NCBI RefSeq assembly: GCF_016862895.1
Contig: NZ_BONV01000001.1
Coordinates: 248,001-312,000 of the forward strand
Direction of reading: 5' to 3'
DNA: 64,000 nucleotides
Origin: Planotetraspora kaengkrachanensis
GTDB lineage: Bacteria; Actinomycetota; Actinomycetes; Streptosporangiales; Streptosporangiaceae
Shown here piece by piece: positions 23,836 through 60,095 of this stretch. Position numbers and translations under genes: made by a program. Position 1 is the first letter of the stretch. Each line of letters opens with the position of its first letter. The notes below the pieces were generated by a model that worked only from the letters and a program-made list of their open reading frames with translations, did not search any database and was not told the DNA's origin.

Positions 23836-25181
23836 TCGGCCGCCGCCAGCAGCCGGCGGTGGGCACGGGCTCCCGCCTCCGCGGCCTCGGCGTCGGAGAC
23901 CGTGCGCAGCTCGCCGTCCTCGACCACCGTCCGGCCGCCCACCAGGAGCCTGGCCAGGGGCGGCGTCCGGCCGAACGCGAACGCCACGACGGGGTCGTCG
24001 ATCGCCGCGTGGTAGCCGCCGAGCCTCCACAACGCGATGTCGGCCAGCTTGCCCACCTCCAGGGAGCCGATCTCCTTCTCGCGTCCGAGGCATCTGGCCC
24101 CGCCCATGGTCGCCAGCTCGAGCGCCTGACGGGCGGTCAGGGCACGCGGGCCGTACCGGGCGCGCTGCATGAGCATCGCCATCCGCACCTCCCCGGCGAG
24201 CGGGGTCATCTCGCTGGAGGCGGCGCCGTCGACGCCGAGGCCGACGGGGGCGCCCTCGCGGAGCAGATCGGAGATCCTGGCGATGCCCGCGCCCAGCCTC
24301 CCGTTGGACGAGGGGCAGTGGGCGGTGCCCGTGCCGGTCAGGGCGAAGCGGCGGATGTCGGCGTCGGTCAGATGGACGCAGTGGGCGAGCCAGACGTCGG
24401 GGCCGAGCCAGTTGAGCTGCTCGAGGTACTCGACCGGGAGCATGCCGAACTGCTCACGGCAGTGATCGTCCTCGTCCGAGGTCTCCGCGATATGGGTGTG
24501 CAGGCGCACGCCGTACGAACGGGCGAGCTCTGCGGACCTGAGCATCAGGTCGCCGGTCACCGAGAACGGCGAGCAGGGCGCGACGGCGACGCGGAGCATC
24601 GAGCCGAACGACGGATCATGGTATTTGCGGATGGCGTCCTCGGTGGCCTGGAGCACCTCGTCCGCCTGCTCGACCAGGTCGTCCGGCGGCAGCCCGCCCT
24701 GGGACTGCCCGCGGTCCATCGAGCCGCGGCATGGATGGAACCGCACGCCCACCTGCCGGGCGGCCTCGATCTCCGCGTCGAAGAGGTCGCCGCGGCCCTT
24801 GGGGAAGACGTAATGGTGGTCGGTCGACGTCGTGCAGCCCGACCTGGCCAGCCAGGCCAGCCCCGCCGTCGCCGCCCCCGACACCACCTCGGCGTCCATC
24901 CGGCCCCACAGCCGGTAGCTGGCGACCAGCCATTCGAACAGCGTCCCGTCGGGCGTGACGCCCTGTGAGGCCCACTGGTAGAGGTGGTGATGGGTGTTGA
25001 CGAACCCGGGGGTCGCCAGGCAGCCGGATCCGTCGACGCGCCGCGCGCCGTCGGGTACGGCCGGCGCCTCGCCCGGGCCGACGGCGGTGATCCGGTCGCC
25101 CTCGACCACGATGTGACCGGAGGGGATCTCCGGGCCGACGATCGGGACGATGTGGGCGTTCTCGATGACGACGTGCCTCAT
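23832..25181 (-). CDS. 8-oxoguanine deaminase (amidohydrolase)
   Basis: Amidohydrolase of 449 residues. Metal ligands are in GFVNTHHHLYQW (about 60-71), HTHIAETSDED (near 230), WLAHCVHL and GLGVDGAASSE. The sequence FHPCRGSMDRGQSQGGLPPD matches the 8-oxoguanine deaminase branch rather than guanine deaminase. The ATG at 25181 is chosen because the alternative GTG at 25196 lies inside a copy of the 53-bp repeat. No strong ribosome site is visible, so the repeat forms the 5' leader of this gene. Confidence 0.85.
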   Translation of the reverse strand: MRHVVIENAHIVPIVGPEIPSGHIVVEGDRITAVGPGEAPAVPDGARRVDGSGCLATPGFVNTHHHLYQWASQGVTPDGTLFEWLVASYRLWGRMDAEVVSGAATAGLAWLARSGCTTSTDHHYVFPKGRGDLFDAEIEAARQVGVRFHPCRGSMDRGQSQGGLPPDDLVEQADEVLQATEDAIRKYHDPSFGSMLRVAVAPCSPFSVTGDLMLRSAELARSYGVRLHTHIAETSDEDDHCREQFGMLPVEYLEQLNWLGPDVWLAHCVHLTDADIRRFALTGTGTAHCPSSNGRLGAGIARISDLLREGAPVGLGVDGAASSEMTPLAGEVRMAMLMQRARYGPRALTARQALELATMGGARCLGREKEIGSLEVGKLADIALWRLGGYHAAIDDPVVAFAFGRTPPLARLLVGGRTVVEDGELRTVSDAEAAEAGARAHRRLLAAAE

Positions 25182-25345
25182 TGCATGATCACGCACAGGA
25201 AACTCGCAGGTCAGAGTGGGCGGCAGCGAAAGAGCGCATGATCACGCCCGGAGGACGGGCAGGCGGGAGGGGTGATCGCCGAGGCTGTGCATGATCACAC
25301 ACAAGGGGCTCGCGAGCGCGCATGATCACGCTTGGAGTGATCACG
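25181..25345 (-). repeat. Array A of the 53-bp GTGATCATGC repeat
   Basis: Cores (read on the minus strand as GTGATCATGC) align from 25181, 25234 and 25287, spaced exactly 53 and 53 bp. Shortened units follow at 25318 (31 bp) and 25333 (15 bp). The last TGATCA provides the TGA stop (25343-25341) of the 2Fe-2S subunit gene, and the first core touches the deaminase ATG. The stretch holds nothing else between the two genes. Confidence 0.9.
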
Positions 25346-25814
25346 GCTGGTGTTTGCGGGTGGCGGCCAGACGGACGGCGTCGAGGATCTTCTCGTATCC
25401 CGTGCACCGGCAGAGATTGCCCGCCAGGGCTTCGCGGATATCGGCGTCCTCGGGGACCCCGGGCGTGCTCTCGATCAGCGAATGCGCCTGAACGATCAGC
25501 CCGGGAGTGCAGAACCCGCACTGTACGGCTCCCGCCTCAACGAACGACCGCTGGACCTCGTCCAGCTCGCCGCCCGAGGCAAGCCCCTCCACCGTGATCA
25601 CGTCCCTGCCCTCGGCCTGGCCGGCCGCGACCAGGCAGGCGCAGACCGGGGTCCCGTCCAGGTAGACCGTGCACGAACCGCACTCACCCTGCTCGCAGGC
25701 GTTCTTGGCCCCCGGGAGGCCGAGCCGCTCCCTGAGGACGTAGAGCAGGCTCTCGCCTTCCCAGACGTCGTCGGCGGCCATCGTCTCGCCGTTGACACTG
25801 ATGTTCACCCTCAT
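25341..25814 (-). CDS. Xanthine dehydrogenase 2Fe-2S subunit
   Basis: Electron-transfer subunit of a CoxS/XdhC-type molybdenum hydroxylase. The protein has 157 residues. The plant-type 2Fe-2S cluster is CEQGECGSCTVYLDG with a partner Cys in VCACLVA (about 40-65), and the second cluster is CGFCTPG and CRCTGY (about 103-142). The ATG overlaps the FAD-subunit stop. The stop codon lies inside the array A repeat. No molybdopterin (large) subunit gene follows, which is abnormal for this operon type. Confidence 0.93.
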   Translation of the reverse strand: MRVNISVNGETMAADDVWEGESLLYVLRERLGLPGAKNACEQGECGSCTVYLDGTPVCACLVAAGQAEGRDVITVEGLASGGELDEVQRSFVEAGAVQCGFCTPGLIVQAHSLIESTPGVPEDADIREALAGNLCRCTGYEKILDAVRLAATRKHQP

Positions 25815-26674
25815 GCAGTCCCCCTCCCCGCGTAGTCGTTCCATGCCCACCCCAGCGTGCGGCGAGCCATCACGGCGAGCGAATGCAGCCGGTAGTCCGC
25901 CCGCCCGCGCACGTCGTCGATGGGCGCGGCCGCTCCGGCGACGAGCTCGCCGAACCTCCTGGCGACGCCGGGGTCCAGCGGCGAGCGCCCCTCCCAGTCG
26001 AGTTCGGCGGCGACGAACTCCTCCGCCTCGGCGGCGTGCCTGGGGGTGGGGGCCGCGGATCCGATGCCGGTCCCCACGCGCCGCTCCCCGGGGTGCAGGG
26101 CGACGGCGAAGGAGCAGACCGCGATCACCATGGCGTTCCTGGTGCCGATCTTGGAGAAGTACTGCGGGCCGGTCGCCGCGGGGATCCGCACCGCGCGGAT
26201 CAACTCGTCCGGCTCCAGCGCGTGGCGTTTCACGCCGGTGTAGAACTCGGCGATCGGGATCATCCGCGTGCCGCGCACCGACTCCGCCTCCACGATCGCG
26301 CCGGACGCCAGGAGCGGCGGGTGCGCGTCCCCCGCCGGCGAGGCGGCGCCGAGGTTGCCCGCGACGGTGCCCCTGTTGCGGATCTGCGGCGAGCCGACGG
26401 TCCGCGACGCCTGGGCGAGCCCGGGCAGGAGCGCGCCCAGCTCGGCGATCAGCCGGGTGTAGGTCACCCCGGACCCCACGCGGATCTCCGGCCCCGCCGT
26501 CGACCACAGGGTCAGCTCGGCCACGGGGTTCAGGTCGATGAGGGCGGCGGGCCGGCCCTTGTCGAGGTTGATCTCCACCATCACGTCGGTGCCGCCCTGA
26601 ATCGGCGTCGCCTCCGGCCGCTCGGCCTTGTAGGCCAGGGCCTGTTCCCAGGTGAGAGGGCGCAGGAAGTCCAT
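25811..26674 (-). CDS. Xanthine dehydrogenase FAD-binding subunit
   Basis: CoxM/XdhB-type FAD subunit of 287 residues. FAD-binding segments are TPIQGGTDVMVEINLDKGRPAALIDLN (about 24-50) and TVGSPQIRNRGTVAGNLGAASPAGDAHPPLLA (about 92-123). The start MDFLRPLTW at 26674 follows a GGGAG site and lies 4 nt past the uricase stop. The order uricase, FAD subunit, 2Fe-2S subunit fits a purine-degradation operon. Confidence 0.92.
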   Translation of the reverse strand: MDFLRPLTWEQALAYKAERPEATPIQGGTDVMVEINLDKGRPAALIDLNPVAELTLWSTAGPEIRVGSGVTYTRLIAELGALLPGLAQASRTVGSPQIRNRGTVAGNLGAASPAGDAHPPLLASGAIVEAESVRGTRMIPIAEFYTGVKRHALEPDELIRAVRIPAATGPQYFSKIGTRNAMVIAVCSFAVALHPGERRVGTGIGSAAPTPRHAAEAEEFVAAELDWEGRSPLDPGVARRFGELVAGAAAPIDDVRGRADYRLHSLAVMARRTLGWAWNDYAGRGTA

Positions 26675-26678
26675 GGTG

Positions 26679-27542
26679 CTACTCCCAGGCCGGTCCGGCG
26701 CCGGGGGCGTCGTCACGCACGACCGCGCCCTCGATCAGTCCGTACGGCCGGTCGGCGGCGAAGTACACCTCGTCGTCGTTGTCCAGGCCGAACGGCGACA
26801 GGTCGACGAGGAAGTGGTGCCTGTTGGGCAGCGAGAGCCGTACCTCGCAGATCTCGGGGCAGTCGTTCAGCACGCGTGACCCCATGGCGTACAGGGTCTG
26901 CTGCAGGGACAGGCTGTAGGTGCCGCCGAAGGCCGACAGCAGCGCCTGGCGGGCGTTCTCATACGACTTGTCGAAGGCCGCGCCGTCCGTGGCGGCATGC
27001 CGCCACGAGGCGTTCACGGCCGTGGCGAGGATGCGGTCGCGGGTCTCCGGCAGGGTCGTGTACTCGTCCTTGATGTAACCCCAGAACTCCGAGTTCGTCG
27101 TGTTGAGCACGACCAGGCCGGTGAGCCCCGAGACGACCCACGCCTGGAAGCCGTCGTAGTGGGCCACGCAGGTGCGGGTCTCCCTCCCCGACCGGGCGAA
27201 GGAGTGCCCGAAGTCGCCGTTGCGCTCCCAGGCGTACTCCTCCACCGCGACCCGCGCGTGGTGCACGGTCGGCTGGGAGTCGACGAAATGCCGGGCCAGG
27301 AGCAGGGCGAAGTCCTCGATCGCGCCCACGCCGTGCTTCTTGGCGAACGCGTGGACCGTGTTCTTCTGCGTGTCGGTGGCCAGCACCGCCGAGTTGTCCC
27401 CGCTGAGATGCACCTCGGCCATGTCTCCAGACAGCGAGGTGCTGACGTTGAGGTCCTTGATGTGGTGGGCGTCGCCGTGCCTGGTGACCCGCACCACCCT
27501 CGTCTCGGCCTTGCCGTACCTGTTGGGCCCCAAGATGATCAC
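26679..27542 (-). CDS. Urate oxidase (uricase)
   Basis: Cofactor-free oxidation of urate to 5-hydroxyisourate. The protein has 287 residues with the duplicated T-fold layout. Motifs are LGPNRYGKAETRVVRV (N-terminus), ATDTQKNTVHAFAKKHG (near 60-76) with the catalytic Thr/Lys, and LPNRHHFLVDLSPFGLDN near the C-terminus. The GTG at 27542 starts 1 nt after the HIU hydrolase stop, so the two consecutive enzymes are coupled. Confidence 0.95.
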   Translation of the reverse strand: MIILGPNRYGKAETRVVRVTRHGDAHHIKDLNVSTSLSGDMAEVHLSGDNSAVLATDTQKNTVHAFAKKHGVGAIEDFALLLARHFVDSQPTVHHARVAVEEYAWERNGDFGHSFARSGRETRTCVAHYDGFQAWVVSGLTGLVVLNTTNSEFWGYIKDEYTTLPETRDRILATAVNASWRHAATDGAAFDKSYENARQALLSAFGGTYSLSLQQTLYAMGSRVLNDCPEICEVRLSLPNRHHFLVDLSPFGLDNDDEVYFAADRPYGLIEGAVVRDDAPGAGPAWE

Positions 27543-27543
27543 G

Positions 27544-27891
27544 CTAGCTCCCCCGGTAGGTCGAGTAGGCGAACGGGCTGAGCAGCAGCGGAACATGATG
27601 GTGTTCACCGGCGTCGCGGATGGTGAAGACGATGCTGACCTCGGGGAAGAAGGCGTCCTGCCCGAGGTAGGCGGCGGTGTCGAACACGAGCCGGTAGGTC
27701 CCGGGACGGGGATCGCCGTCGGCGGCCCACTCGCGGCCCAGGGGGGACCACTCGCGGATCCGGCCGTCGCCGTCGGTCCGTCCCTCCGCGACTGGCACGA
27801 ACCCGTGCGGCGCGCGGCGCGACAGCCGTACGAACAGGCCGGGGGCGGGCCGTCCCGTGACGGTGTCGAGCACGTGGGTGGACAGGCTCAT
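27544..27891 (-). CDS. 5-hydroxyisourate hydrolase (transthyretin-like)
   Basis: Opens 5-hydroxyisourate to OHCU. The protein has 115 residues. The N-terminal LSTHVLDTVTGRPAPG carries the catalytic His, and the C-terminus ends YSTYRGS, the diagnostic TRP tetrapeptide. The ATG at 27891 overlaps the OHCU decarboxylase stop (ATGA). Confidence 0.96.
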   Translation of the reverse strand: MSLSTHVLDTVTGRPAPGLFVRLSRRAPHGFVPVAEGRTDGDGRIREWSPLGREWAADGDPRPGTYRLVFDTAAYLGQDAFFPEVSIVFTIRDAGEHHHVPLLLSPFAYSTYRGS

Positions 27892-28361
27892 CGGCCCTCC
27901 CACAGCTTCGCCAGCCTCAGCTTCACGATCGCGTTCAGCTCCTCACGGACGATCTTCCGTTCGGACTCCTCGTCGCCCGCCAGCCGTTCGCGCAGGAAGA
28001 CCAGCATCTCGCCGGCGCTGCGGCCGGTCGCGCAGACCAGGTAGACGTGCCCGAACCGCTCCTCGTAGGCGGCGTTGCCCTCCCGGATGGCGTCGAGAAC
28101 CTCCCGGTCGGCCGCCGTGGTCCCCGACTGCTCGCTGCGCGACCACGCGGCCTCCCTGCCGTCCCCTGACGGCCGCTCGCCGATCCGGGGGTGCGCCGCG
28201 AGCGCCTCCTCGACGTCGGGCCAGGTGAGGTCGGCGATCGCCGCCTCCCCCGCGTCGACGAGGCCGGCGAGGTCCCGGTACGGCCCCCGCCGCGCGACCG
28301 CCGACACCCAGGCCGTGGACGCGCAGCAGGAACGCAGGTCCTGCCGGCTGATTTCACGCAT
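27888..28361 (-). CDS. OHCU decarboxylase
   Basis: Converts OHCU to S-allantoin. The protein has 157 residues. Motifs are AAHPRIGERP with the catalytic His (near residue 64) and an AAYEERFGHVYLVCATGRSAGEML segment typical of the family. First gene of the purine-degradation cluster; the start at 28361 gives the standard N-terminus MREISRQDLRSCC. Divergent from nfo, and no purine-responsive regulator gene is adjacent. Confidence 0.94.
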   Translation of the reverse strand: MREISRQDLRSCCASTAWVSAVARRGPYRDLAGLVDAGEAAIADLTWPDVEEALAAHPRIGERPSGDGREAAWSRSEQSGTTAADREVLDAIREGNAAYEERFGHVYLVCATGRSAGEMLVFLRERLAGDEESERKIVREELNAIVKLRLAKLWEGR

Positions 28362-28498
28362 GGCAGCAAGTAGACAACCCTGTGCGTACCAGGTCCAGCA
28401 GCGGGAACTCCCAAGTGCCCGTCCCCGCACCCTCGCCGGTTTGTACGTTGACACAAAGGGAGCGGCCACAAAGGGGCCGACATTACGCTGGACGCATC

Positions 28499-29338
28499 AT
28501 GACTTCAACGAATCTCATCGGCGGGCACGTGTTCGTCACGGGGGGCCTGGCGACCGGTGGGCTGAAATACGCCGCCGAGATCGGTGCGGAGATGATCCAG
28601 GTCTTCGTCACCAACCCGCGGGGCTGGGCGCTCAGCGTGGGCAATCCGGCCGAGGACGAGAAGCTGGCCGCCTCGGGCGTGCAGACCTTCGTCCACGCCA
28701 ACTACCTGATCAACTTCGGCTCGCCCACTCCGGCGACCCTGGAGAACTCGGTCGCGGTGACTCGCCACACGCTGCGCCGCGCGGCGCAGGTCGGGGCACG
28801 CGGCGTGGTCGTCCACACGGGCTCGGCCGTCAGCCAGTCACGCGAGGACGCCCTGCGCCAGGTGCGCGAGCACCTGCTGCCCCTGCTCGACGAGATCGAC
28901 GAGGACGGCCCCGACCTGCTGCTCGAGCCCATGGCCGGGCAGGGCCAGATGCTCTGCGCCACCGTGCAGGATCTCGGCCCCTACCTGGAGGCCCTCGATC
29001 ATCACCCCAAGGTGGGCGTCTGCCTGGACACCTGCCACGCGTTCGCGGCCGGTCACGACCTCGCCGCCCCCGACGGGGTGGGGGCCACCCTCGACGCGCT
29101 GAACGAGATCGCCCCGGGCCGCCTCCGGCTGATCCACGCCAACGACTCCAAGGACGTGTGCGGCTCGAAGAAGGACCGGCACGAGAACATTGGCGCCGGG
29201 CACATCGGCGCGCAGGCCTTCGCCGATCTCATGCGTCATCCGGTCGCCGCCGGGATCTCGCTCTGCATCGAGACGCCGGGCAAGGGCGAGAAGCACCGGG
29301 AGGACATCGAGGTGCTCAAGAAGCTCCGGAGCGTCTGA
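28499..29338 (+). CDS. nfo: Endonuclease IV (AP endonuclease)
   Basis: Zinc-dependent AP endonuclease of base-excision repair with a TIM-barrel fold. The protein has 279 residues. Metal-binding motifs are FVHANYLINFGSP, LLLEPMAGQG, VGVCLDTCHAFAAGHD, LIHANDSK, RHENIGAGHIG and LCIETPGKGE. The ATG at 28499 gives the standard start; upstream in-frame codons are non-coding. The stop region (GCGTCTGACCG) is repeated in degenerate form downstream. Confidence 0.95.
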   Translation: MTSTNLIGGHVFVTGGLATGGLKYAAEIGAEMIQVFVTNPRGWALSVGNPAEDEKLAASGVQTFVHANYLINFGSPTPATLENSVAVTRHTLRRAAQVGARGVVVHTGSAVSQSREDALRQVREHLLPLLDEIDEDGPDLLLEPMAGQGQMLCATVQDLGPYLEALDHHPKVGVCLDTCHAFAAGHDLAAPDGVGATLDALNEIAPGRLRLIHANDSKDVCGSKKDRHENIGAGHIGAQAFADLMRHPVAAGISLCIETPGKGEKHREDIEVLKKLRSV

Positions 29339-29480
29339 CCGTCCCTGGCTCCGGAACTTCCAGCCGGGCTCTGGGCGTGTGACCGTAGCGGGCTCCGGAG
29401 CGTCGGCCCTGGGGTTTGCAGCGTCTGACCGCCTTGGGCTTCGGCGCCTGGTTCGACCGTTCGGCGCCTGTCCGACCGCT
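29331..29480 (+). repeat. Degenerate downstream copies of the nfo stop-codon region
   Basis: GCGTCTGACCG at 29331 (spanning the nfo TGA) recurs as GCGTGTGACCG at 29375 and GCGTCTGACCG at 29421, then as shorter GACCG copies near 29455 and 29473. GCTCCGGAGCGTC at 29323 recurs at 29392. No open frame is supported here. It looks like decayed tandem duplication that starts at the gene end. Confidence 0.6.
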
Positions 29481-29490
29481 CTGTGCGTTT

Positions 29491-32941: not shown

Positions 32942-33982
32942 ATGGTCATCGTCATGGCCCCCGGGGCCACACAGGACGACATCGAGTCGGTCGTCGCCGT
33001 CGTCGCCTCCGCCGGGGGCGAGGCCTTCGTCAGCCGCGGGGTGAGCCGCACGATCATCGGGTTGATCGGCGACGTGGAACAGTTCGCCGCGCTGAACCTC
33101 CGGGGGCTGGCCGGCGTGGCCGACGTGGTGCGCGTCTCCACGCCGTACAAACTCGTCAGCAGGGAGAACCATCCCGACCGGTCCACGGTGACCGTGCGCG
33201 GGGTCCCGATCGGCCCGGACACCGTCACCCTCATCGCCGGCCCGTGCGCGGTGGAGACCCCGGAACAGACCCTCGAGGCCGCCGAGATGGCGAAGGCCGC
33301 GGGCGCGACCCTGCTGCGCGGCGGGGCGTTCAAGCCGCGGACCTCGCCGTACGCCTTCCAGGGGCTCGGGGAGAAGGGCCTGCGCATCCTCGCCGACGTG
33401 CGCGAGCAGACCGGCCTGCCGATCGTCACCGAGGTGGTCGACGCCCACGACGTGGCGCTGGTCGCCTCATACGCGGACATGCTGCAGGTGGGGACCAGGA
33501 ACGCCCAGAACTTCGCGCTGCTCCAGGCCGTGGGCGCCGCCGGAAAGCCGGTGATGCTCAAGCGCGGCATGACGGCCACGATCGAGGAATGGCTGATGGC
33601 GGCCGAGTACATCGCGCAGCGCGGCAATCTCGACATCGTTCTGTGCGAGCGGGGCATCCGGACCTACGAGACGGCGACCCGCAACACGCTGGACATCTCG
33701 GCGGTGCCGGTGGTGCAGCGGATGTCGCACCTGCCGGTCATCATCGACCCGTCTCACTCGGGCGGCCGGCGGGACCTCGTGCTGCCCCTCACCCGGGCGG
33801 CCATCGCCGTAGGGGCGGACGGAGTGATCATCGACGTCCACCCGCATCCCGAGCAGGCTCTGTGCGACGGGCCGCAGGCTCTGGTGAACGGCGACCTGGA
33901 CGAGCTCGCCATGATCATGCAGGAGTTCCCCAAGCTCATGTCCCGAACCCTCACCCAACCCGCCCCCCACCCCTCGGCGTGA
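32942..33982 (+). CDS. aroF: 3-deoxy-7-phosphoheptulonate (DAHP) synthase, type I-beta
   Basis: First enzyme of the shikimate pathway. The protein has 346 residues. An N-terminal ferredoxin-like regulatory domain (about 1-68, MVIVMAPGATQDDIESVV) is fused to the KDPG-aldolase-type barrel: IAGPCAVET, LRGGAFKPRTSPYAFQG, MLQVGTRNAQNF, VMLKRGM and DPSHSGGRRDLV. This differs from the class II AroG at the same position in mycobacteria. The TGA stop is the first TGA of array B. Confidence 0.95.
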   Translation: MVIVMAPGATQDDIESVVAVVASAGGEAFVSRGVSRTIIGLIGDVEQFAALNLRGLAGVADVVRVSTPYKLVSRENHPDRSTVTVRGVPIGPDTVTLIAGPCAVETPEQTLEAAEMAKAAGATLLRGGAFKPRTSPYAFQGLGEKGLRILADVREQTGLPIVTEVVDAHDVALVASYADMLQVGTRNAQNFALLQAVGAAGKPVMLKRGMTATIEEWLMAAEYIAQRGNLDIVLCERGIRTYETATRNTLDISAVPVVQRMSHLPVIIDPSHSGGRRDLVLPLTRAAIAVGADGVIIDVHPHPEQALCDGPQALVNGDLDELAMIMQEFPKLMSRTLTQPAPHPSA

Positions 33983-34137
33983 TCATGCACAGATTCGGTG
34001 GGAGGCGGGCTGAGCAGCGCACATGCGTCGCGTGATCATGCACAGATTCGCGATCAAGCCATCCGACCTGCGTCGATACGTTTCGTGATCATGCACCACA
34101 GTGCCCGTACGGCATGCGCGGCCTGGGGCGCGCATGC
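33979..34137 (+). repeat. Array B, left half: three 53-bp units running out of the aroF stop codon
   Basis: GTGATCATGCAC at 33979, 34032 and 34085, spaced 53 and 53 bp. The first two continue identically as AGATTCG. The aroF TGA is bases 2-4 of the first unit. The third unit runs into the central hairpin. Confidence 0.93.
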
Positions 34138-34140
34138 CGT
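34109..34140. terminator. Perfect 12-bp hairpin between the two halves of array B
   Basis: ACGGCATGCGCG, an 8-nt loop, CGCGCATGCCGT. It lies between the convergent genes aroF and thiI and can act in both directions; no U-tract on either side. Confidence 0.6.
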
Positions 34141-34193
34141 CGGCGGGGCCAGCCGTACGGACCCGCGATGACACCCGGCCGACCGCGGCGCTC

Positions 34194-34530
34194 CGCCTTC
34201 ACGGCGGCCTGCCGACAGGGAAGCCTGCGCGTACGCGCATGATCACGTACGGACGATCCCCAGGCCAGGCATGCCGCGAGAGAATCCGTGCATGATCACG
34301 CGACGCGTACGCGCTGGTCGGCTCGCCTCTCGCCGAATCCGTGCATGATCACGGCGAGAGGCGGGGGCGGTCAGGGCGCCTTTCGCCGAACCTGTGCATG
34401 ATCACCACCTGCATGTGCGCAGCTCAGCCGGCGCATCCCCGAGCCTGTGCATGATCACGGCGAGGGGGGTGAGCGTGTGCATGATCACGGCGAGGGGGGT
34501 GAGCGTGGGCTTGATCACCGCAAGGGGCCC
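34194..34530 (-). repeat. Array B, right half: 53-bp units running out of the thiI end on the minus strand
   Basis: The 12-mer GTGCATGATCAC (minus-strand GTGATCATGCAC) aligns from 34235 (one mismatch), 34288, 34341, 34394 and 34447, each exactly 53 bp apart. Then come two 30-bp steps to 34477 and 34507 (34441-34470, 34471-34500 and 34501-34530 are tandem 30-mers; the first two match at 29 of 30). At 34325-34362 a unit boundary forms a perfect 11-bp hairpin (GCCTCTCGCCG). Confidence 0.93.
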
Positions 34531-34545: not shown

Positions 34546-35748
34546 TCAGGTGTCGGCGTCCAGGCGGTAGGGGCGGATGGAGTCGGCCAGCTGGGATGCC
34601 AGGTCCTCGGCGTCCAGCCGCTTCTCGATCAGCTTCAGGTCCTCGATCTTGGCCCGGGTCTCGGCGGAACGGGGAGCCAGCAGCGTGCAGCAGTCCTCGT
34701 CGGGAAGCTCGGAGATCTCCAGGGTGCCGATCCGCCGGGCCTCCGCGATGATCTCGGTCTTGTCCAGCCCGATCAGCGGCCGGAGGATCGGCAGGTCGAC
34801 GGCGTTGTCCTGGGCGGTGATGTTCGTCAGCGTCTGGGAGGAGACCTGGCCGAGCGAGTCGCCGGTGACGAGCGCCTCGGCGTGGATGCGGTGGGCGACC
34901 TCCTCGGCCGTCTTCAGCATCAGCCGCCGCTGGGCGATCATGGCGAGCCTGTCCTGGCCCGACGCCCTGATCGACTGCTGGGCCTTGCCGAACGGCACGA
35001 CCCACAGGCGGGACTTGCCCTGGAACTTGTCGAGGTTCCTGACCAGCGCGTACGCCTTGTAGATCGACTCCGACGTCGTGAACGGAATGCCGGAGAAGTG
35101 CAGGAAGTCCACCCGGAGCCCGCGGCGCATCATGCGGTACGCGGCGACCGGGGAGTCGATGCCGCCCGACATGAGCACCAGGCCGCGGCCGCTGGAGCCG
35201 ACCGGCAGGCCGCCCTGGCCGGGGATGCCGCCGGTGAACAGGAACACCTCGTCCCTGTCGACCTCGATGTGCACGGTCAGCTCGGGCTTCTTCAGGCTCA
35301 CCGGCAGGCCGTAGGTGTCGTTGATCGCGCCCCCGACGAGGCGGTCCAGTTCGTTGGAGCGCAACGGGAACCGCTTGTCCCGCCGCCGCGAACGTACGGC
35401 GAAGTGCGCCTTGCGTGCCACCTCGTCGGTGTCCTTGACGAGTTCGATGGCCGCCTTCGTGACGACCTCGGGGTCCTTGGCGACCCGCCACGCGAGGTGG
35501 ATCAGCACCAGCCCGGGCACCTCGGAGACCCGCTTGGCGACCGCCTCGGCCACCTCCACGCCGGTCCCTTCGGGAAGGAAGAGCGCGATGACGCCGTGCC
35601 GCTGACGGATCTCCACCGGGAAGTCCTTGAGCGCGGCCTTGATGTTCGCCCGCAGCCGCATCTCGAACAGCTCGCGGTTCCTGCCCTTGAGGACGACTTC
35701 GCCTAACTTGAGCAGGACGCAGGGCTCTCCGAGTGTGGTCATCGACAT
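34546..35748 (-). CDS. thiI: tRNA uracil 4-sulfurtransferase ThiI (no rhodanese domain)
   Basis: Sulfur insertion for 4-thiouridine in tRNA and/or thiazole. The protein has 400 residues from ATG 35748 (GGAGG upstream). Order: NFLD and THUMP domains (to about 165), then the PP-loop ATPase with LMSGGIDSPVAAYRMM (near 180) and LVTGDSLGQVSSQTL. It ends after this domain and lacks the C-terminal rhodanese Cys of E. coli ThiI, so another sulfur donor is needed. Convergent with aroF across array B. Confidence 0.92.
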   Translation of the reverse strand: MSMTTLGEPCVLLKLGEVVLKGRNRELFEMRLRANIKAALKDFPVEIRQRHGVIALFLPEGTGVEVAEAVAKRVSEVPGLVLIHLAWRVAKDPEVVTKAAIELVKDTDEVARKAHFAVRSRRRDKRFPLRSNELDRLVGGAINDTYGLPVSLKKPELTVHIEVDRDEVFLFTGGIPGQGGLPVGSSGRGLVLMSGGIDSPVAAYRMMRRGLRVDFLHFSGIPFTTSESIYKAYALVRNLDKFQGKSRLWVVPFGKAQQSIRASGQDRLAMIAQRRLMLKTAEEVAHRIHAEALVTGDSLGQVSSQTLTNITAQDNAVDLPILRPLIGLDKTEIIAEARRIGTLEISELPDEDCCTLLAPRSAETRAKIEDLKLIEKRLDAEDLASQLADSIRPYRLDADT

Positions 35749-53690: not shown

Positions 53691-53704
53691 CGTACGGCCG
53701 TACG
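53691..53704. promoter_or_regulatory. 14-bp perfect palindrome upstream of glkA
   Basis: CGTACGGCCGTACG, about 65 bp before the glkA start. It may be an operator, but CGTACGG words are common in this genome, so the call is weak. Confidence 0.35.
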
Positions 53705-53783
53705 AGGGGTGCCCTCGCCACAAAACCGCGTCGCCGGAACCGACCGAAGCCTGGCCCGGTCAAATCTGATCGAGCCGATCCAA

Positions 53784-54275: not shown

Positions 54276-55432
54276 TTCGCCCCTCCTGCCTCGAACCGTA
54301 CCCGGAGGCGGCCGTCGGAGAGCGTCGCGGAGGAGATACCCCGGCGAGCGAGGGCCAAAGGCAGGGCGATCACCCGCCGGTAGGGGCCGGCCGTGACGAT
54401 CAGCTCGTCGCCCTTGCGGGCCAGGTCGACGTCGGCCTTGTCGGCGAGCGGCAGGTCCAGCACCAGCTCGTCGGCGGTCATGCGCAGCGGCGGTTCGGCC
54501 TGGGGCCGGGCGAACGCGTCGGCGGAGCCGTACAGCTCCTCCGCGACGCCGGCGAGGGCGGCGGGGCCGACCGGTTCCGCGGCGAGGTACGGCACGGTCA
54601 TGACCGGCAGCGGCGCGAACGACTCGTCGACCTCGGCGAGCCGCCTGGCCTGCGCCTCGACCCAGCCCCTGCGCCACTCGTCGGCGCCGTCGGCGGGGAA
54701 GACCCGGTTGGCGATCACCGCGTCGACGCGGTAGCCGTACAGGCTGAGCGAGGTCAGCGTGCGGCGGGCCTCGGCGACCACGACCGCCTCCGGCGTGAGC
54801 ACCAGCCGGACGGAGGCGTCCGCGCCGGTCAGCAGCTCGCGGATGTCCAGCAGGGCGCGGTGCAGCCGCTCGCCCGCCGAGATGACCTCTCCCTGCGGGA
54901 CGCTCACCTTCGCGACGTGCCGCAACACCGGGGACACCGCTCTGAGCACGCGCCTGCCGACCGGGACGAGCCGGTTGACGTGCCAGTCGAACGCCTCGGG
55001 CAGGGCCAGCAGCCGCAGGGTCTCCGCGGTCGGCGCGCAGTCGACCACGATGACGTCCCACGTGCCCGTGCGGGCCTGCTCACGCAGCTCGAGCAGCGCG
55101 ATGATCTCCTCCGCCCCGGGGAGGACCGTGATCTCCTCGGAGGTGATCTCGTCGAGGCCCAGCTCGCCGAACAGGTTGGTGATGTAGTCGCGCAGCTCGC
55201 CCCAGTGCCGTTCGAGCGACTTCTGGGTGTCGACCTGCTGGAGGAAGAGGCCGGGAGCGGCCTCGACGGGCTCCTCCGACGCGGGGACGGCGAGGGCGTC
55301 GGCCAGGGAATGGGCCGTGTCGGTCGACACGACCAGCGTCTTCAGGCCGCGCGCCGCCGCGAGGGTCGCGGTCGCGGCGGCGACGGTGGTCTTGCCGACG
55401 CCCCCCTTCCCCGTGAAGAGGAGGATCCTCAT
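54272..55432 (-). CDS. ArsA/GET3-like ATPase
   Basis: The protein has 386 residues from ATG 55432, overlapping the SRPBCC stop. The deviant Walker A is LLFTGKGGVGKTTVAAATATLAA (residues 4-26), the switch region STDTAHSLADAL, and A-loop VDCAPTAETLRLL. One ATPase domain only, like Rv2184c in mycobacteria rather than two-domain arsenite pumps; no arsenic genes nearby. A role in membrane-protein or lipid handling is possible. Confidence 0.9.
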   Translation of the reverse strand: MRILLFTGKGGVGKTTVAAATATLAAARGLKTLVVSTDTAHSLADALAVPASEEPVEAAPGLFLQQVDTQKSLERHWGELRDYITNLFGELGLDEITSEEITVLPGAEEIIALLELREQARTGTWDVIVVDCAPTAETLRLLALPEAFDWHVNRLVPVGRRVLRAVSPVLRHVAKVSVPQGEVISAGERLHRALLDIRELLTGADASVRLVLTPEAVVVAEARRTLTSLSLYGYRVDAVIANRVFPADGADEWRRGWVEAQARRLAEVDESFAPLPVMTVPYLAAEPVGPAALAGVAEELYGSADAFARPQAEPPLRMTADELVLDLPLADKADVDLARKGDELIVTAGPYRRVIALPLALARRGISSATLSDGRLRVRFEAGGAK

Positions 55433-55866
55433 AGGCTCTCGACGCGCTTCTTCAGCCCGTTCAGCGCGGTGTCGACGAGGACCTTCTCCGCCTTGCGCTT
55501 GATCATCCCGATCATGGGGACCTTGAGCTCGACGGCGAGCTCGTAGGTCACGTCGGTTCCGGCGTCCCCGTCGGTGAGGCGGTAGCTGCCGCTCAGGCGG
55601 GACAACATCCGGCCCGCCTCGGCGATCTCCCAGCTGACGACCTCGTCGCCGGCCCAGTCGTAGGCGAGGACGTACTGGTCGCTGATCACGCCGGCGTCGA
55701 TGACGAACCGGACCTTGGCGGGCCTGGCGTCCTCCCCGACCTCCAGGACGTCCGCGCTCTTCACCTGGCCCGCCCATTCGGGATAGGCGGCGAAGTCCGC
55801 GATCACCGTCATGATCGCCGGTCGGCCGGCGCGGATGGTGACACTCGAGGTGGTGCGATCAGCCAT
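55429..55866 (-). CDS. SRPBCC (START-like) family protein
   Basis: The product has 145 residues with a helix-grip hydrophobic-ligand fold: VIADFAAYPEWAGQVKSADVLE at the N-terminus, SRLSGSYRLTDGDAGTDVTYELAVEL in the middle and a long C-terminal helix MIKRKAEKVLVDTALNGLKKRVESL. Corresponds to Rv2185c. Likely binds a lipid or polyketide-like molecule; coupled to the ArsA-like ATPase. Confidence 0.88.
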   Translation of the reverse strand: MADRTTSSVTIRAGRPAIMTVIADFAAYPEWAGQVKSADVLEVGEDARPAKVRFVIDAGVISDQYVLAYDWAGDEVVSWEIAEAGRMLSRLSGSYRLTDGDAGTDVTYELAVELKVPMIGMIKRKAEKVLVDTALNGLKKRVESL

Positions 55867-55880
55867 GGGCTAACCGTACT

Positions 55881-56648
55881 TCACCATTCCAGGGCGAAAG
55901 GCGTGCCGCGGCCGCGGAAATGGCCGACGTTGACGCACTCGGTCCGGCCGATCCGCGTCCTGCTCACCAGAGGCTGGTGTACGTGGCCGAACAGGGCGTA
56001 CCTGGGCTGGGTCGCCTTGATCGCCTCCAGTGTCGCCTCGCTGCCCCGCTCGAAGCGGCGGGCCACGACGTCGTACAGCAACTCCGGCACGGCCGGCGGG
56101 ATGTGGCAGCACAGCACGTCGACCTGGCCGACGGCCTCGACCTTCCGCGCGTAGTCCTCGTCGTCGATCTCGTACGGCGTGCGGTAGCGGGTGCGCAGGC
56201 CGCCGCCCACGAAGCCGAAGGTCAGCCCGCCGATCTCGACCTTCGTTCCGTCGAGCACCTGGTGGCCGGCCCGCAGGTAGTCCTTCCAGAGCAGCGGCAG
56301 GTCGACGTTGCCGTAGGTGAGGTACGCGGGCTCGGGCATGGCGGCGAAGATCTGCTCGTACTGTCTCCGTACGGCCGACTCGATGTGCCCGCGCGGGTCG
56401 CCGCCGAGGCCGGACCACAACACGGCCGACATCGCCCTGGCGTCGTCGAACCTGCCGGCCGTGCGCAGGCCGATGAACTCGGAGGCCTTCTCCGGGCCGA
56501 AGAGGTCGGCGAAGATCCCCTGGGAGTGATCCTGGTAGTCGACGAAGAGGATCAAATCGCCCAGGCACACGAGCGCGTCCGCGCCGTCTCCCGCGCGGGC
56601 CAGAGCGTCGACCCGGCCGTGGACGTCGCTGACGACATGAACCCGCAT
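55881..56648 (-). CDS. Metallophosphoesterase
   Basis: Calcineurin-like phosphatase of 255 residues. The five metal motifs are intact: VSDVHG (7-12), CLGDLI, TYGNVDLP, CCHIPPAVPE and FGHVHQPLVS. Cytoplasmic; the substrate could be a nucleotide or phosphoprotein. Start ATG 56648; 14 nt upstream of the SRPBCC gene, same strand. Confidence 0.88.
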   Translation of the reverse strand: MRVHVVSDVHGRVDALARAGDGADALVCLGDLILFVDYQDHSQGIFADLFGPEKASEFIGLRTAGRFDDARAMSAVLWSGLGGDPRGHIESAVRRQYEQIFAAMPEPAYLTYGNVDLPLLWKDYLRAGHQVLDGTKVEIGGLTFGFVGGGLRTRYRTPYEIDDEDYARKVEAVGQVDVLCCHIPPAVPELLYDVVARRFERGSEATLEAIKATQPRYALFGHVHQPLVSRTRIGRTECVNVGHFRGRGTPFALEW

Positions 56649-56887
56649 GGCGACATCGTAGTACCGCTCCGATTCGACCGACCAAGCGCTTGACCACAGG
56701 TCAGGCGATTGTCCCCTCCCGGCCCGAGCGGCACTGATAGCGTGCGCTTGACCCGGGATAACGCCTATATGACGGATCTACCGGTCCGTAACTTTGCGCG
56801 GTAACGTCCGGGGAGATCTCAGGGAATGACGTCCGCGACCGCCGTTCCGGCCTCGCGGAACCGGCGGAGCGTGACAGAGGAGTGACC

Positions 56888-58672
56888 GTGCGCGAGTTCA
56901 GTGTTCCCGTGCTGGTGGATGTGCCCCCGTCTGCCAACTGCACCGACGTGGTGTTCCAGCGCGCGGTGGACGAACCGGACACCGTCGTGATCCGCCGCAA
57001 GGACGGCGCCGCCGCCGACGCCCCCTGGAACCCCGTCACCGCCGCGGGCTTCCGCGCCGACGTCGCCGCCGTGGCCAAGGGACTGATCGCCGCCGGCGTC
57101 GAGGCCGGCGACCGGGTGGGCCTGATGTCCCGTACGCGCTACGAGTGGACGGTCACCGACTACGCCATCTGGGCGGCCGGCGCCGTGAGCGTGCCGATCT
57201 ACGAGACCTCCTCCGCCGACCAGGTGAAGTGGATCCTGTCCGACAGCGGCGCCAAGGCCGTCGTCGTCGAGCTGGCGTCCCACGAGGAGACGGTGCGGGA
57301 GGCCCTGCCGGACTTCCCCCTGATCTGGCGGATCGACGACGGCGGGCTCGACGAGCTCAAGACCGGCGGATCCGGCGTCGCCGACGACGCACTCGCCGAA
57401 CGCCGCGCGAGCAGGGGCGGCCACGACCTCGCCACGATCATCTACACGTCCGGGACCACGGGCATGCCGAAGGGCTGCCGGATCACCCACGACAACCTGC
57501 TCTTCACGGCGCGCAACGTCTCGCACGGCCCGCTCGAGGCGATGTTCGACGTGGACCACCGGGCGGCGCTGCTGTTCCTGCCCCTCGCCCACAGCTTCGC
57601 CCGGATCATCGAGGTGGTGCTGATCGAGACGGGCACGGTACTCGCGCACACCCCCAACATGAAGAACGTCGCCCCCGACCTGCAGGGGTTCAAGCCCACG
57701 TTCCTCCTCGGCGTGCCCCGCGTGTTCGAGAAGGTCTACAACGCCGCCGAGCAGAAGGCCGTGTCCGAGGGCAAGGGCAAGATCTTCCACGCCGCCGTAC
57801 GGACCGCGATCGACTGGAGCCGCGCGGAGAGCACCGGCGGCGCGGGGCTCGGCGTCCGGATCAAGCACGCGCTGTTCGACAAGCTCGTCTACGGCAAGCT
57901 GCGCGCCGCGACCGGCGGCGCCCTGAACACGGCGGTGTCCGGCGGCTCGGCCCTCGGCGAGCGGCTCGGGCACTTCTTCCGCGGCGTCGGCATCGAGGTG
58001 CTCGAGGGCTGGGGCCTCACCGAGACGAGCGCGCCGTCGACGGTCAACATCCCGGGCGCCAACAAGATCGGGACGGTCGGCAAGCCGTTCCCCGGCGTGA
58101 CCATCGGGATCGCGGACGACGGCGAGATCCTGGTCAAGGGACGCCACGTCTTCGACGGCTACTGGAACAACGAGCGCGCCACCAAGGAGGCCATCGACTC
58201 CGAGGGCTGGTTCCACACGGGCGACGTGGGCGAGCTCGACGAGGACGGCTACCTGAAGATCACCGGCCGCAAGAAGGAGATCCTCGTGACCGCGGGCGGC
58301 AAGAACGTGGCGCCCGCCCCGCTCGAGGACGCCATCCGGGCGCACCGCCTGATCAGCCAGGTCATGGTGGTCGGCGACGACCGGCCGTTCGTCGCCGCGC
58401 TCGTCACGCTCGATCCCGAGGCGATGGAGCAGTGGAAGCAGGCCAACGGCAAGACCGAGTACTCCACGACCGACCCGGCCCTGCAGGCCGAGGTGCAGGG
58501 CGCCGTCGACGTCGCCAACCGCATGGTCTCCAAGCCCGAGCAGATCAAGAAGTTCGTCATCCTGGAGAACGACCTGACCGAGGAGACCGGCCACCTCACG
58601 CCGTCGCTGAAGGTCAAGCGGGCGGTCGTGATGCGCGACTTCGCCAAGCAGGTCGACGAGCTCTACGGCTGA
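56888..58672 (+). CDS. Long-chain acyl-CoA ligase (FadD15-like)
   Basis: AMP-forming fatty-acid activation. The product has 594 residues. P-loop IIYTSGTTGMPKGC (near 182-195), then WGLTETSAPSTVN, GWFHTGDVGELDEDGYLKITGRKKE and the catalytic Lys near the C-terminus in LTPSLKVKR. GTG 56888 fits AGGAG 5 nt upstream better than the in-frame GTG two codons earlier (56882). Next to a PimB-like gene, as in M. tuberculosis Rv2187-Rv2188c. Confidence 0.92.
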   Translation: MREFSVPVLVDVPPSANCTDVVFQRAVDEPDTVVIRRKDGAAADAPWNPVTAAGFRADVAAVAKGLIAAGVEAGDRVGLMSRTRYEWTVTDYAIWAAGAVSVPIYETSSADQVKWILSDSGAKAVVVELASHEETVREALPDFPLIWRIDDGGLDELKTGGSGVADDALAERRASRGGHDLATIIYTSGTTGMPKGCRITHDNLLFTARNVSHGPLEAMFDVDHRAALLFLPLAHSFARIIEVVLIETGTVLAHTPNMKNVAPDLQGFKPTFLLGVPRVFEKVYNAAEQKAVSEGKGKIFHAAVRTAIDWSRAESTGGAGLGVRIKHALFDKLVYGKLRAATGGALNTAVSGGSALGERLGHFFRGVGIEVLEGWGLTETSAPSTVNIPGANKIGTVGKPFPGVTIGIADDGEILVKGRHVFDGYWNNERATKEAIDSEGWFHTGDVGELDEDGYLKITGRKKEILVTAGGKNVAPAPLEDAIRAHRLISQVMVVGDDRPFVAALVTLDPEAMEQWKQANGKTEYSTTDPALQAEVQGAVDVANRMVSKPEQIKKFVILENDLTEETGHLTPSLKVKRAVVMRDFAKQVDELYG

Positions 58673-58729
58673 CCCGCCGCGCAACGGGCCCGTCTCTACG
58701 GCTGACCCCGGCGCGTAACGGGGGCCCGT

Positions 58730-59959
58730 TCATCGGCGTTCCGCGGCGGGCTCGCTCCCTGTCGCGGTCCCCGTCGCCGTCCCCGTCTCGCTCGCCGTTG
58801 TGGCGGCCGTCGCGGTCGCCTTCGTGGCCGCCGTCGTCGCCCCCGTCTCGTCGGGCGCGAGGATGCCGGTGAAGCGGGCGGCGACCCGGTCCCAGCCCCA
58901 CTCCTCCTCGACCCAGGCCCGGCCCCGCTCCCCCATGGCGCGGGCGCGGGCCGGGTCGGCCAGCAGGCCGGTCAGGGCCTCGGCGATCTCCGCCTCCGAG
59001 GTGCCGTCGACGACCAGGCCGGTCTCGCCGTGCCGTACGGCGTCGGGGGCGCCGCCCGACGCGCCGGCGACCACGGGAAGCCGGGTGGCCGACGCCTCCA
59101 GGTAGACGATGCCGAGCCCCTCGAGGTCCAGCCCGGCCAGGCGGGTGCGGCACGGCATGGCGAACACGTCTCCCGCGTCGTAGTGCGCAGGAAGCCGCGC
59201 CCACGGCACAGACCCCGTGAACACGATCGAGCCCTTCGCGACACGGGCCGCCGACCGTTCGAGCGCCTTGCGGGACGGGCCGCCGCCGACGAGCAGCAGC
59301 ACTGCGTCGGGGATCGCCCGCAACACCCGCGGCCAGGCTTTGATCAGCATGTCCTGGCCCTTGCGCGGCACCAGCCGGGAGACGCACACGGCCACCGGCC
59401 GGTCCCCCAGGCCGAGCGACCTGCGGACGCCGGCGCCGCCGGCGCCCGGGTGGAAGGCCGCCGTGTCCACTCCGGGAGCCAGCCTCACCAGCTTGGACTC
59501 CGGGATCACCGTCGCGAGCCTGCGCCGCGTGTAGTCGCCGAGATAGGTCACCACGTCGGCGCCCCCGCCGATGCGGCGGAGCACGTCCCGGGCGACGGGC
59601 AGCCGGGCCCACGACGCCTCGTGCCCGTGGGTGAGCATCACGACCCTGCCCGCACCGGCCGCGCGCAGGCCGGGGGCGAGCATGCCCAGGGGGGCCGCCG
59701 CGCCGAAGACCACGGTGTCGCAACCCCCGGCCAGCTCGGCCGCTCTGCGGGCCACGCCGCGCGTGGGGAGCATGAGGGTCCCCGGATGCCTGACCACCTC
59801 GTACGGCTGCCGCCGGTCGAAGGCGTCCGATCCCCTCCACCGGGGCGCGTAGACGATCACGGAATCCGCCGGGCGCCGCGCGGCCAGGCCGTGGACGAAC
59901 GCCTGGATCCCCCCGGCCCGCGGCGGGAAGTCATTGGTGACGATCAGCGTCCTCCCCAT
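58730..59959 (-). CDS. GT4 glycosyltransferase, PimB'-like mannosyltransferase
   Basis: Probable GDP-mannose-dependent second mannosylation of phosphatidylinositol. The protein has 409 residues: N-terminal VTNDFPPRAGGIQAFVHGLA, C-terminal GT-B motif SRLVPRKGQDMLIKAW, VFTGSVPWARLPAHYDAGDVFAMPC and EGLGIVYLEASATRLPVVAG (EX7E). The last 35 residues are a Thr/Ala/Gly low-complexity tail from hexamer-like repeats (58755-58850), foreign to the family. Start ATG 59959; the array C repeat is directly upstream. Confidence 0.88.
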   Translation of the reverse strand: MGRTLIVTNDFPPRAGGIQAFVHGLAARRPADSVIVYAPRWRGSDAFDRRQPYEVVRHPGTLMLPTRGVARRAAELAGGCDTVVFGAAAPLGMLAPGLRAAGAGRVVMLTHGHEASWARLPVARDVLRRIGGGADVVTYLGDYTRRRLATVIPESKLVRLAPGVDTAAFHPGAGGAGVRRSLGLGDRPVAVCVSRLVPRKGQDMLIKAWPRVLRAIPDAVLLLVGGGPSRKALERSAARVAKGSIVFTGSVPWARLPAHYDAGDVFAMPCRTRLAGLDLEGLGIVYLEASATRLPVVAGASGGAPDAVRHGETGLVVDGTSEAEIAEALTGLLADPARARAMGERGRAWVEEEWGWDRVAARFTGILAPDETGATTAATKATATAATTASETGTATGTATGSEPAAERR

Positions 59960-59977
59960 CGCCACCCCCTCTTCCCC

Positions 59978-60095
59978 GTGATCATGCACACATTCGGGAT
60001 TACCACCTCTGACCGGCCCCCTCATCTCGCGTGATCATGCACACCTTCGGCATCTCCCCCGCCCACCTGCGCGAACGCATCGCGTGATCATGCAC
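59978..60095 (+). repeat. Array C of the 53-bp GTGATCATGC repeat
   Basis: GTGATCATGCAC at 59978, 60031 and 60084, exactly 53 and 53 bp apart; two units end in TCGC. The third core contains the TGA stop (60090-60088) of the HExxH gene, and the first lies 19 nt upstream of the PimB-like start. It fills the whole gap between the two minus-strand genes. Confidence 0.93.

Follow-up and report, generated by a model that had tools for sequence, protein, structure and literature searches.

Phased, inward-facing extragenic repeats in Planotetraspora and an AbiEi-like/Vsr-like nuclease as their candidate partner

The window, a 64-kb stretch of the genome of the soil actinobacterium Planotetraspora kaengkrachanensis, carries a family of 53-bp repeats in three gene gaps. 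A search with GTGATCATGCAC allowing up to two mismatches yielded 30 matches, while shuffled sequences yielded 3.96 on average and at most 9 in 100 shuffles. Seventeen of these matches are array units at places already given by a reading made from the sequence only, 12 lie elsewhere, and one (25185-25196) is a palindrome seen from the opposite strand. The arms listed below are based on the unit search, the sequence and gene calls, and the centre of the second array on direct inspection of the sequence.

25181..25345, minus strand: one-armed array of four units (25181, 25234, 25287, 25318)
33979..34096, plus strand: left arm of a two-armed array, three units (33979, 34032, 34085)
34107..34159, no strand: centre of the two-armed array, with a perfect 10-bp inverted repeat (34110-34119/34130-34139)
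34235..34518, minus strand: right arm of the two-armed array, seven units (34235, 34288, 34341, 34394, 34447, 34477, 34507)
59978..60095, plus strand: one-armed array of three units (59978, 60031, 60084)

The first array, oriented minus, separates the minus-strand genes 23832-25181 and 25341-25814, and is extended by a degenerate GTGATCAC at 25338-25345 that falls outside the two-mismatch set. In the second, three plus units 3' of the plus-strand gene 32942-33982 are followed by seven minus units 3' of the minus-strand gene 34546-35748, which we take to be ThiI; the 10-bp hairpin between them lacks a T run. Similar array centres were noticed by eye in sequences of P. silvatica and P. thailandica. 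The third array is oriented plus, yet the genes called on both sides (58730-59959 and 60088-60945) are on the minus strand, and its last core holds the stop codon of the latter. Within arms, ten of the 13 steps are exactly 53 bp, the remaining ones being 31, 30 and 30 bp; an additional 15-bp step claimed earlier depends on the degenerate GTGATCAC. The sequence-only reading had also proposed that the outermost TGATCA of each array provides the stop of the neighbouring gene. This holds for the plus-strand gene ending at 33982 (aroF in the earlier naming) and the minus-strand gene ending at 60088, while the gene ending at 25341 has its stop in a degenerate TGATCA.

The family extends well outside the window. 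The host genome (G000, Planotetraspora-like, 8.77 Mb) contains 652 exact 12-mers (320 and 332 on the two strands), compared to none on either strand for the reversed control. In an 846-kb sample of this genome, none of the 143 exact 10-mer cores fell within genes called by our own simple gene caller, 88 of the 103 same-strand steps were 53 bp, and neighbouring units on opposite strands pointed inward (ten plus-minus pairs, no minus-plus pairs). Both the extragenic location and the 53-bp spacing suggested by the window hold in this sample. The sample contains 28 multi-unit arrays, whereas CRISPRs form one or few repeat-spacer loci beside cas genes. Distance measurements showed an overlap with the neighbouring stop codon in six of these 28 arrays, so the earlier description of the family as anchored on stop codons is not supported as worded: stop codons are neighbours of the arrays rather than anchors.

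Arrays occur more often in convergent than in divergent gaps, in 11/79 vs. 2/128 in the G000 sample and 15/47 vs. 2/66 in a sample of P. sp. A-T 1434 (G105). Strict sense orientation toward the upstream gene fails in tandem gaps of G000, where units occur in both senses. For 80 units from five other lineages an upstream gene could be assigned, and 63 of them are in the sense direction relative to it (10 more have no upstream gene, and three lie inside genes). Hairpins form at the centres of inverted arrays. Both observations would fit an RNA-level element of the 3'-UTR or a terminator read in the sense direction. We consider this unlikely, given the two senses in G000 and the lack of covariation in the candidate RNA hairpin between the tail of box A and box B (CAGGT/ACCTG), rejected on 49 units; the top covariation in these units (z of 3.8 among ∼1,200 pairs) falls at unrelated positions. 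Moreover, RNA would presumably have no need of rigid 53-bp helical steps.

The units vary by 4% in the core, 20% in box B, and 36–37% in the spacers. Spacers of neighbouring units agree at 12.2 of 29 positions, and those of different arrays at 10.2, equal to the null expectation of 10.2. As the latter differ on average as much as column-shuffled spacers do, we rejected the copying of units between loci, although alike pairs (at least 20/29) are in slight excess between arrays (0.23% vs. 0.016%). Passive, functionless tandem repeats of the VNTR or MIRU type, fixed early in the genus, would account for the differences in unit number between species. Mycobacterial MIRUs resemble the family in being short tandem units between genes, in some cases of ∼53 bp, that touch stop codons; they are arranged as direct repeats and are not known to have inward arms, dialects or a partner nuclease. 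Passive repeats are already disfavoured, and we regard them as highly improbable, since spacers of adjacent units resemble each other little more than spacers from separate arrays do while the cores are almost invariant, and unrelated families have the same core and the same partner gene (see below).

Array loci persist between Planotetraspora species, in up to six genomes, with conserved boxes and diverged spacers. Orthologous arrays were found in all five other genomes compared for both 25181..25345 and the plus arm at 59978..60095, the latter with two extra minus units in G105; thus, the arrays recur at the gene ends of relatives. Insertion sequences and MITEs with terminal inverted repeats would be expected to leave target-site duplications and to show recent insertions at new sites; G003 shares all 12 comparable arrays with G000, and at the place of one additional G003 array G000 has other genes. 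The number of units is less stable: the locus at 33979 has ten in G000 and three in P. phitsanulokensis (G002), where the aroF frame, as judged by eye, stops before the core, and seven shared loci contain 14 cores in G002 and 31, 34, and 35 in G000, G003, and G004, respectively. G105 carries 141 exact 53-bp pairs; its sampled stretches scarcely overlap those of G000, and the comparison of flanking genes is limited to five orthologue-like pairs. Among 80 ThiI loci scanned with a generic repeat detector, the 53-bp step was reported only at those labelled Planotetraspora. Being old and conserved, the array positions argue against frequent movement at present.

Outside the genus, the core CGTGATCATGCA is amplified in seven of the 394 sampled Actinomycetes, belonging to scattered, unrelated genera and families, and the suffixes vary by genome. 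The copy numbers are 612 in G000, 288 in G422, 287 in G794, 100 in G905, 35 in G760, 29 in G825, and 20 in G111; the other sampled genomes have 0–8 copies, with none in G770, from the same genus as G794. A further dialect, of G940, has 48 copies in its own genome and 0–2 in 24 other genomes, 22 of them from the same genus; the reversed control is high in these other genomes (3–19). Two array patterns searched in viral contigs gave zero stretches, and a phage origin of the repeats was rejected on this basis.

The candidate partner of the repeats is a protein of ∼320 residues that starts with a winged helix, resembles AbiEi in its middle part, and ends in a Vsr-like (MTES_1575) nuclease. In the host genome, arms of these repeats enclose its gene and face inward.

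G000:C58:39897-40862, on another contig than the window: candidate partner gene

Pfam PF18741 (MTES_1575) matches all ten aligned members (best E-value 3.5e-12), and AbiEi_1 matches eight; seven acidic or basic residues, E192, D224, E235, D237, H242, D251, and R254, are invariant in the alignment (A2). A sequence search for a relative with a solved structure found none. Homologues at 1e-30 are present in 188 of the 394 sampled genomes. Of 30 chosen proteins, 23 entered a tree (seven had no usable frame by the rule applied). In it, the five members with 53-bp steps group together (99/97), and four with 21–22-bp steps fall within a group of six (92/90); the base is open.

The link between the gene and the repeats comes from a profile (A1) of two array-bracketed proteins, from G905 and G825, selected for this bracketing, and searched in 15 chosen genomes. 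In nine of them (G905, G825, G422, G794, G760, G004, G000, G003, and G001), the best match is surrounded by TGATCATG cores, with exact 8-mer cores on both sides in eight; seven of these genes, all but those of G905 and G825, were obtained by homology alone. By comparison, the 1,922 genes called in samples of five genomes include four with at least two inward cores on either side. In G001, G422, and G825, the gene-side units are a close match to those elsewhere in the genome, and in G000, G003, G004, G794, and G905 a broad one. Several observations count against the pairing or the phasing: in G760 the gene-side units agree only partly with the five others seen, in G422 the steps of 35–38 bp are not whole turns, and G105 has abundant arrays, yet the homologue found there is divergent (108 bits) and lacks cores. 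P. phitsanulokensis has no A1 match and fewer units. The flank core at the G111 homologue is CGTGATCTTG.

At 19 further homologues, compared with 60 shuffles each at a threshold of 0.035, flank repeats both tandem and inward were found in nine, mostly of other sequence, and at least one of the two signals in 15; the steps are 21–22, 41, and 44 bp. No flank repeat was detected at the remaining four (G352, G255, G823, G208). Low-scoring paralogues show at least one signal in 12/19 cases and both in 1/19, meaning that the boundary is not sharp. Each paralogue within one genome may own a separate repeat. Palindromic elements flank several paralogues.

The neighbours of the nuclease gene are kept while the repeat differs: DUF349 and RelA/ACT genes in G794, G760, G957, G946, and G787, and P450 and GDP-mannose dehydratase genes in G000 and G111. 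The AbiEi regulator binds inverted repeats within its operon (PMC7319586), and the N-terminal and middle parts of the protein resemble it. Unlike in AbiE type IV toxin-antitoxin systems, the AbiEi-like part is fused to a nuclease, and there are hundreds of sites rather than one operator. In AbiE systems, AbiEi is partnered with an adjacent AbiEii nucleotidyltransferase; here, both neighbours at five loci (L336, L337, L338, L340, L344) match tRNA synthetase, ClpX, DUF349, RelA, P450, and GDP-mannose dehydratase. The immediate neighbours examined are housekeeping-type genes. This bears on a role in defence, in which hundreds of self sites would hold or license a nuclease attacking DNA without them, or would titrate a toxic one. 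In the three proteins tried, the AbiEi-like region has matches among defence-system models, and the lack of the array patterns in viral contigs would agree with self-marking. Still, any lineage-specific repeat is expected to be absent from viruses, and with such neighbours defence seems improbable. The nuclease domain itself resembles MTES_1575, described as a novel Vsr-fold restriction endonuclease (PMC3710099); that one is a single domain of a large HEPN protein, and passages describing it there mention no association with repeats.

A stronger alternative is a domesticated host system, in which a protein on phased arrays would give the chromosome its shape, insulate it (at 3' ends or domain borders), or block read-through, the nuclease being dormant or rarely used and the repeats kept by host need. 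The conserved array loci and boxes, the preference for convergent gaps, and the stable position of the nuclease gene all fit. On the other hand, few convergent gaps of the G000 sample carry arrays, unit numbers change rapidly, as at the locus at 33979, and the nuclease residues are still invariant; we consider this explanation possible, but less probable than the one below. The sequence-only reading had favoured phased protein binding, and this part is upheld by the conserved boxes, free spacers, rigid 53-bp step, and the RNA hairpin without covariation. Its purely host-side role is not supported as the leading idea, since the core is common to unrelated genera, the suffixes differ by genome, and the repeats surround a particular nuclease gene.

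The closest parallel is provided by REP/BIME elements with their RAYT transposases. RAYT genes are described as always having two inverted REPs as flanks (PMC2817692), and a comparable layout, with inverted copies of a genome's own repeat around an enzyme gene, was found here in nine genomes, with a different enzyme. Also shared are high-copy extragenic repeats, lineage-specific sequence, and inverted arrays. The differences concern both parts: the enzyme is an AbiEi-like/Vsr-like nuclease rather than a Y1 transposase, and the unit is a 10–12-bp core with a suffix in phased direct arrays rather than a GTAG-headed palindrome. Indeed, the consensus units are not palindromes with a GTAG-type head and lack pair covariation. 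Matches to Y1_Tnp (PF01797) were absent from G000, G002, G003, G004, and G105, and RAYT was rejected as the partner in Planotetraspora; G001 had four, and the control was positive in five of 14 known genomes. Searches of an open-access library yielded nothing on the repeat itself or on DUF559/MTES_1575 genes with repeats, in agreement with the earlier statement that no named repeat has these properties.

We therefore consider the arrays likely to be cis-sites of the AbiEi-like/Vsr-like protein, forming a two-part system that would work like REP/RAYT with an unrelated enzyme. At the sequence level, support comes from the pairing of gene and repeats, phasing in most lineages, inward polarity, box conservation, and the stable gene position. 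Binding, cutting, and copying, like any benefit to the host, are inferred. The protein would bind the core GTGATCATGC and a suffix specific to the lineage, with several molecules lined up on the same helix face, which could explain steps near whole turns. The nuclease would nick or cut at bound repeats; repair would then copy, add, and remove units, and seed them at tolerated sites beside gene ends. Joint change of the enzyme and the repeat would produce dialects.

Together with the similar pairings in distant actinobacteria, this appears to be a type of repeat-and-enzyme system that is as yet undescribed. On balance, we lean toward an undescribed class of long-kept AbiEi-like winged-helix/Vsr-like nucleases in Actinomycetes, each of which would recognise, spread, and maintain extragenic repeats of its own dialect, helically phased and facing inward. 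Such nucleases would be a second, independent answer to the task that RAYT performs for REPs. How short extragenic repeats come by a cognate enzyme is so far modelled on REP/RAYT. If the proposed class is real, this logic would have arisen more than once, in this case with an unrelated nuclease, dialects that change along with it, helical phasing, and a home locus that stays fixed. The class would also point to a function for a large, uncharacterised family of nucleases, account for the hundreds of intergenic repeats found per genome, and make the question of what maintains extragenic repeats testable by dialect swaps.

In the genome of P. kaengkrachanensis (G000; 8.77 Mb in 96 contigs), the layout of the 53-bp unit, derived from 64 exact units, is GTGATCATGCAC-ARRTTCG, a 12-nt spacer, a CYGACCTGC-like box at positions 32–40, and a 13-nt spacer. 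The window occupies contig C1 from 248001 to 312000. By a ThiI search the genome falls within or next to Planotetraspora, with best segments at 99% to P. phitsanulokensis and 97% to P. silvatica. The repeat family that the sequence-only reading had claimed for the window is real, as 30 matches with at most two mismatches were found there, compared to the mean of 3.96 in shuffled sequence. Genome-wide, the exact 12-mer has 652 copies and its reversed control none. The placement outside genes and the 53-bp spacing also hold beyond the window: in 846 kb of G000, none of 143 exact 10-mer cores lay inside called genes (all gene calls come from our own simple codon-based caller), and 88 of 103 same-strand steps equaled 53 bp. 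Neighboring cores at most 400 bp apart were oriented ++ in 48 cases, -- in 55, +- in 10, and -+ in none; two -+ cases were seen across the other five genomes sampled. A plain one-armed or an inward two-armed form, the arms facing each other, was found in 26 of 28 multi-unit arrays; the remaining two have an odd unit. Arrays avoid divergent gaps: among G000 gaps of at least 50 bp, two or more cores were found in 11/79 convergent, 13/253 tandem, and 2/128 divergent ones.

All 12 arrays of contig C1 in the stretch alignable to the related genome G003 have an array at the same place there, with the same arm pattern except for single odd units. Five further G000 arrays had no aligned counterpart in this comparison, and at the place corresponding to one G003 array G000 has other genes. 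The divergence between the two genomes is 4% at unit positions 1–12, 19% in the tail, 20% in box B, and 36–37% in the spacers, the contrast between boxes and spacers being an upper bound because the cores guided the alignment; in the 150-bp array flanks it is 14%. Adjacent units have 12.2 of 29 spacer letters in common, versus 10.2 both between different arrays and after column shuffling, and therefore most arrays did not arise by recent duplication. Each of the other five genomes in the comparison has counterparts of both window arrays that start at 25181 and 59978. The array at 33979 is present in G003 and P. silvatica (G004), though the comparison of orthologous places gave none there; at this locus P. 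sp. A-T 1434 (G105) has another gene in between, and the nearby units are on the minus strand only. The number of units turns over fast.

A search for exact 53-bp pairs in 341 genomes of the family turned them up in six, namely G105 and five members of the genus. With one mismatch allowed, such pairs were found only in G000 and G422 among 396 sampled phylum genomes, the G422 match being, on reading, a short array with the same core. The 12-mer CGTGATCATGCA is amplified in 7 of 394 sampled class genomes (612 copies in G000, 288 in G422, 287 in G794, 100 in G905, 35 in G760, 29 in G825, and 20 in G111), the rest having 0–8 copies; G770, of the same genus as G794, has none. In the stretches read from five other lineages, the core tends to come after gene ends, 63 of 80 assignable units being sense to the upstream gene. 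The core suffix varies by genome, and the steps in the stretches read are 22, 32–35, 37–38, or 44 bp. Near ThiI in relatives lie tandem repeats of unrelated sequence, whose steps are 24, 29, and 16 bp (loci L086 ~1774, L110 ~8684, and L112 ~2764). As far as we found in the open-access literature, the core repeat is undescribed.

In G905 and G825, the same protein is encoded between two inward arms. This candidate nuclease has ~320 residues and combines an AbiEi-like winged helix with a Vsr-like (MTES_1575) part. A profile built from the array-bracketed G905 and G825 protein (A1) had matches in 13 of 15 chosen genomes, and none in G110 or P. phitsanulokensis (G002). In nine repeat-rich genomes, the best match is surrounded by TGATCATG cores, which flank the gene on both sides in eight; in G760, an exact 8-mer core lies on one side and GATCATGCA on both. 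The top match has one core nearby in G779, a palindromic pair and CGTGATCTTG units in G111, and no cores around it in G105 or G770. As a background, at least two inward cores on each side were found at 4 of the 1,922 genes called in five genomes. The units adjoining the nuclease gene resemble those elsewhere in the same genome closely in G001 (P. thailandica), G422, and G825, broadly in G000, G003, G004, G794, and G905, and only partially in G760. The P. thailandica dialect, GTGATCATGCAGAAGTTCG, is seen both at the nuclease gene and in other stretches read (L083, L342).

Ordinary genes are also bracketed by inward arms in a cassette-like manner, by eye an acetyltransferase-like and an M20-peptidase-like one in G000 (C3, 162594–163914 and 231106–232910; L213–L215). 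Others among the four are at G001:C12 ~96233–96715 and one gene in G105. At G000:C4 79134–80050, arms enclose a frame that looks DUF309-like by eye.

In an alignment of ten members of the protein family, E192, D224, E235, D237, H242, D251, and R254 are invariant. All ten match MTES_1575 in Pfam, eight AbiEi_1, four DUF559, and three AbiEi_4; in the three members tried, PADLOC AbiEi models match the N-terminal half. A PDB sequence search gave no match at E 0.1. The profile of this alignment (A2) matched 188 of 394 class genomes at the cut-off of 1e-30. The seven repeat-rich genomes top the ranking, but all are members of the model; next come G045 (358 bits) and G787 (339), where the gene is flanked by TGATCAAGCA and GCTGATCATGCA units.

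Twenty further A2 matches were chosen from the list, though not by strict ranking, and G770 was dropped, as its gene was already counted among the A1 matches. Both tandem and inward flank repeats were found at 9 of the remaining 19, and at least one at 15; among low-scoring homologues from the A1 search, the respective numbers were 1 and 12 of 19. The top step with a clear signal at the further loci was 22 bp at six, and 21, 41, and 44 bp at one each. The sole foreign dialect counted, GCAGTTGTTGCG of G940, has 48 copies there and 0–2 in 24 other genomes, its reversed control having 4 and 3–19, respectively.

A second palindromic element (CAGAATGCTGGGTT...CAGCATTCTGTG) occupies the center of two G422 arrays (L274, L278) and brackets, inverted, a low-scoring nuclease homologue (L350); the two are possibly a second repeat–nuclease pair in one genome. 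Inverted CAGAGAAGTGGGGCACCTG-type hairpins bracket the low-scoring homologues L348 (G825) and L357 (G905), and a transposon-like inverted repeat of 169 bp with 85% identity flanks the G033 homologue L379.

In G794 and G760, the nuclease gene has a DUF349 gene on one side and a RelA gene on the other; in G957, G946, and G787 it is enclosed by DUF349 and RelA-like ACT-domain ends. Across these loci, the repeat core takes two clearly distinct forms, TGATCATGCA and CTCGCGAGAGAC. In G000 and G111 it lies between P450 and GDP-mannose dehydratase genes, the setting being alike, by eye, in G003 and G001. In G422 it adjoins a tRNA synthetase of class I and ClpX; G045 has a class I synthetase and an end resembling ClpX, arranged otherwise. 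The same neighbors with different repeat cores speak for long residence with changing repeats, as opposed to recent hopping.

The repeat-and-nuclease pair described here would work like REP/RAYT (PMC2817692), but in the genomes tested it lacks the enzyme that defines that system, and the 53-bp units do not have its repeat structure. Among six Planotetraspora-clade genomes, Y1 transposase matches occur only in P. thailandica (C12, C42, and C55), one with internal stops. The open-access literature searched yielded no account of repeats accompanying DUF559 or MTES_1575 genes.

Natural losses of the nuclease gene cut both ways. P. phitsanulokensis, with no nuclease match, has 14 cores at 7 loci, versus 31–35 cores in its relatives, while P. 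sp. A-T 1434 has abundant arrays despite no array-flanked nuclease copy. Copies may be hidden by draft assemblies. We infer that a protein of this family would bind DNA cooperatively and in a phase-dependent manner, and that the nuclease would maintain and spread its own repeat sites.
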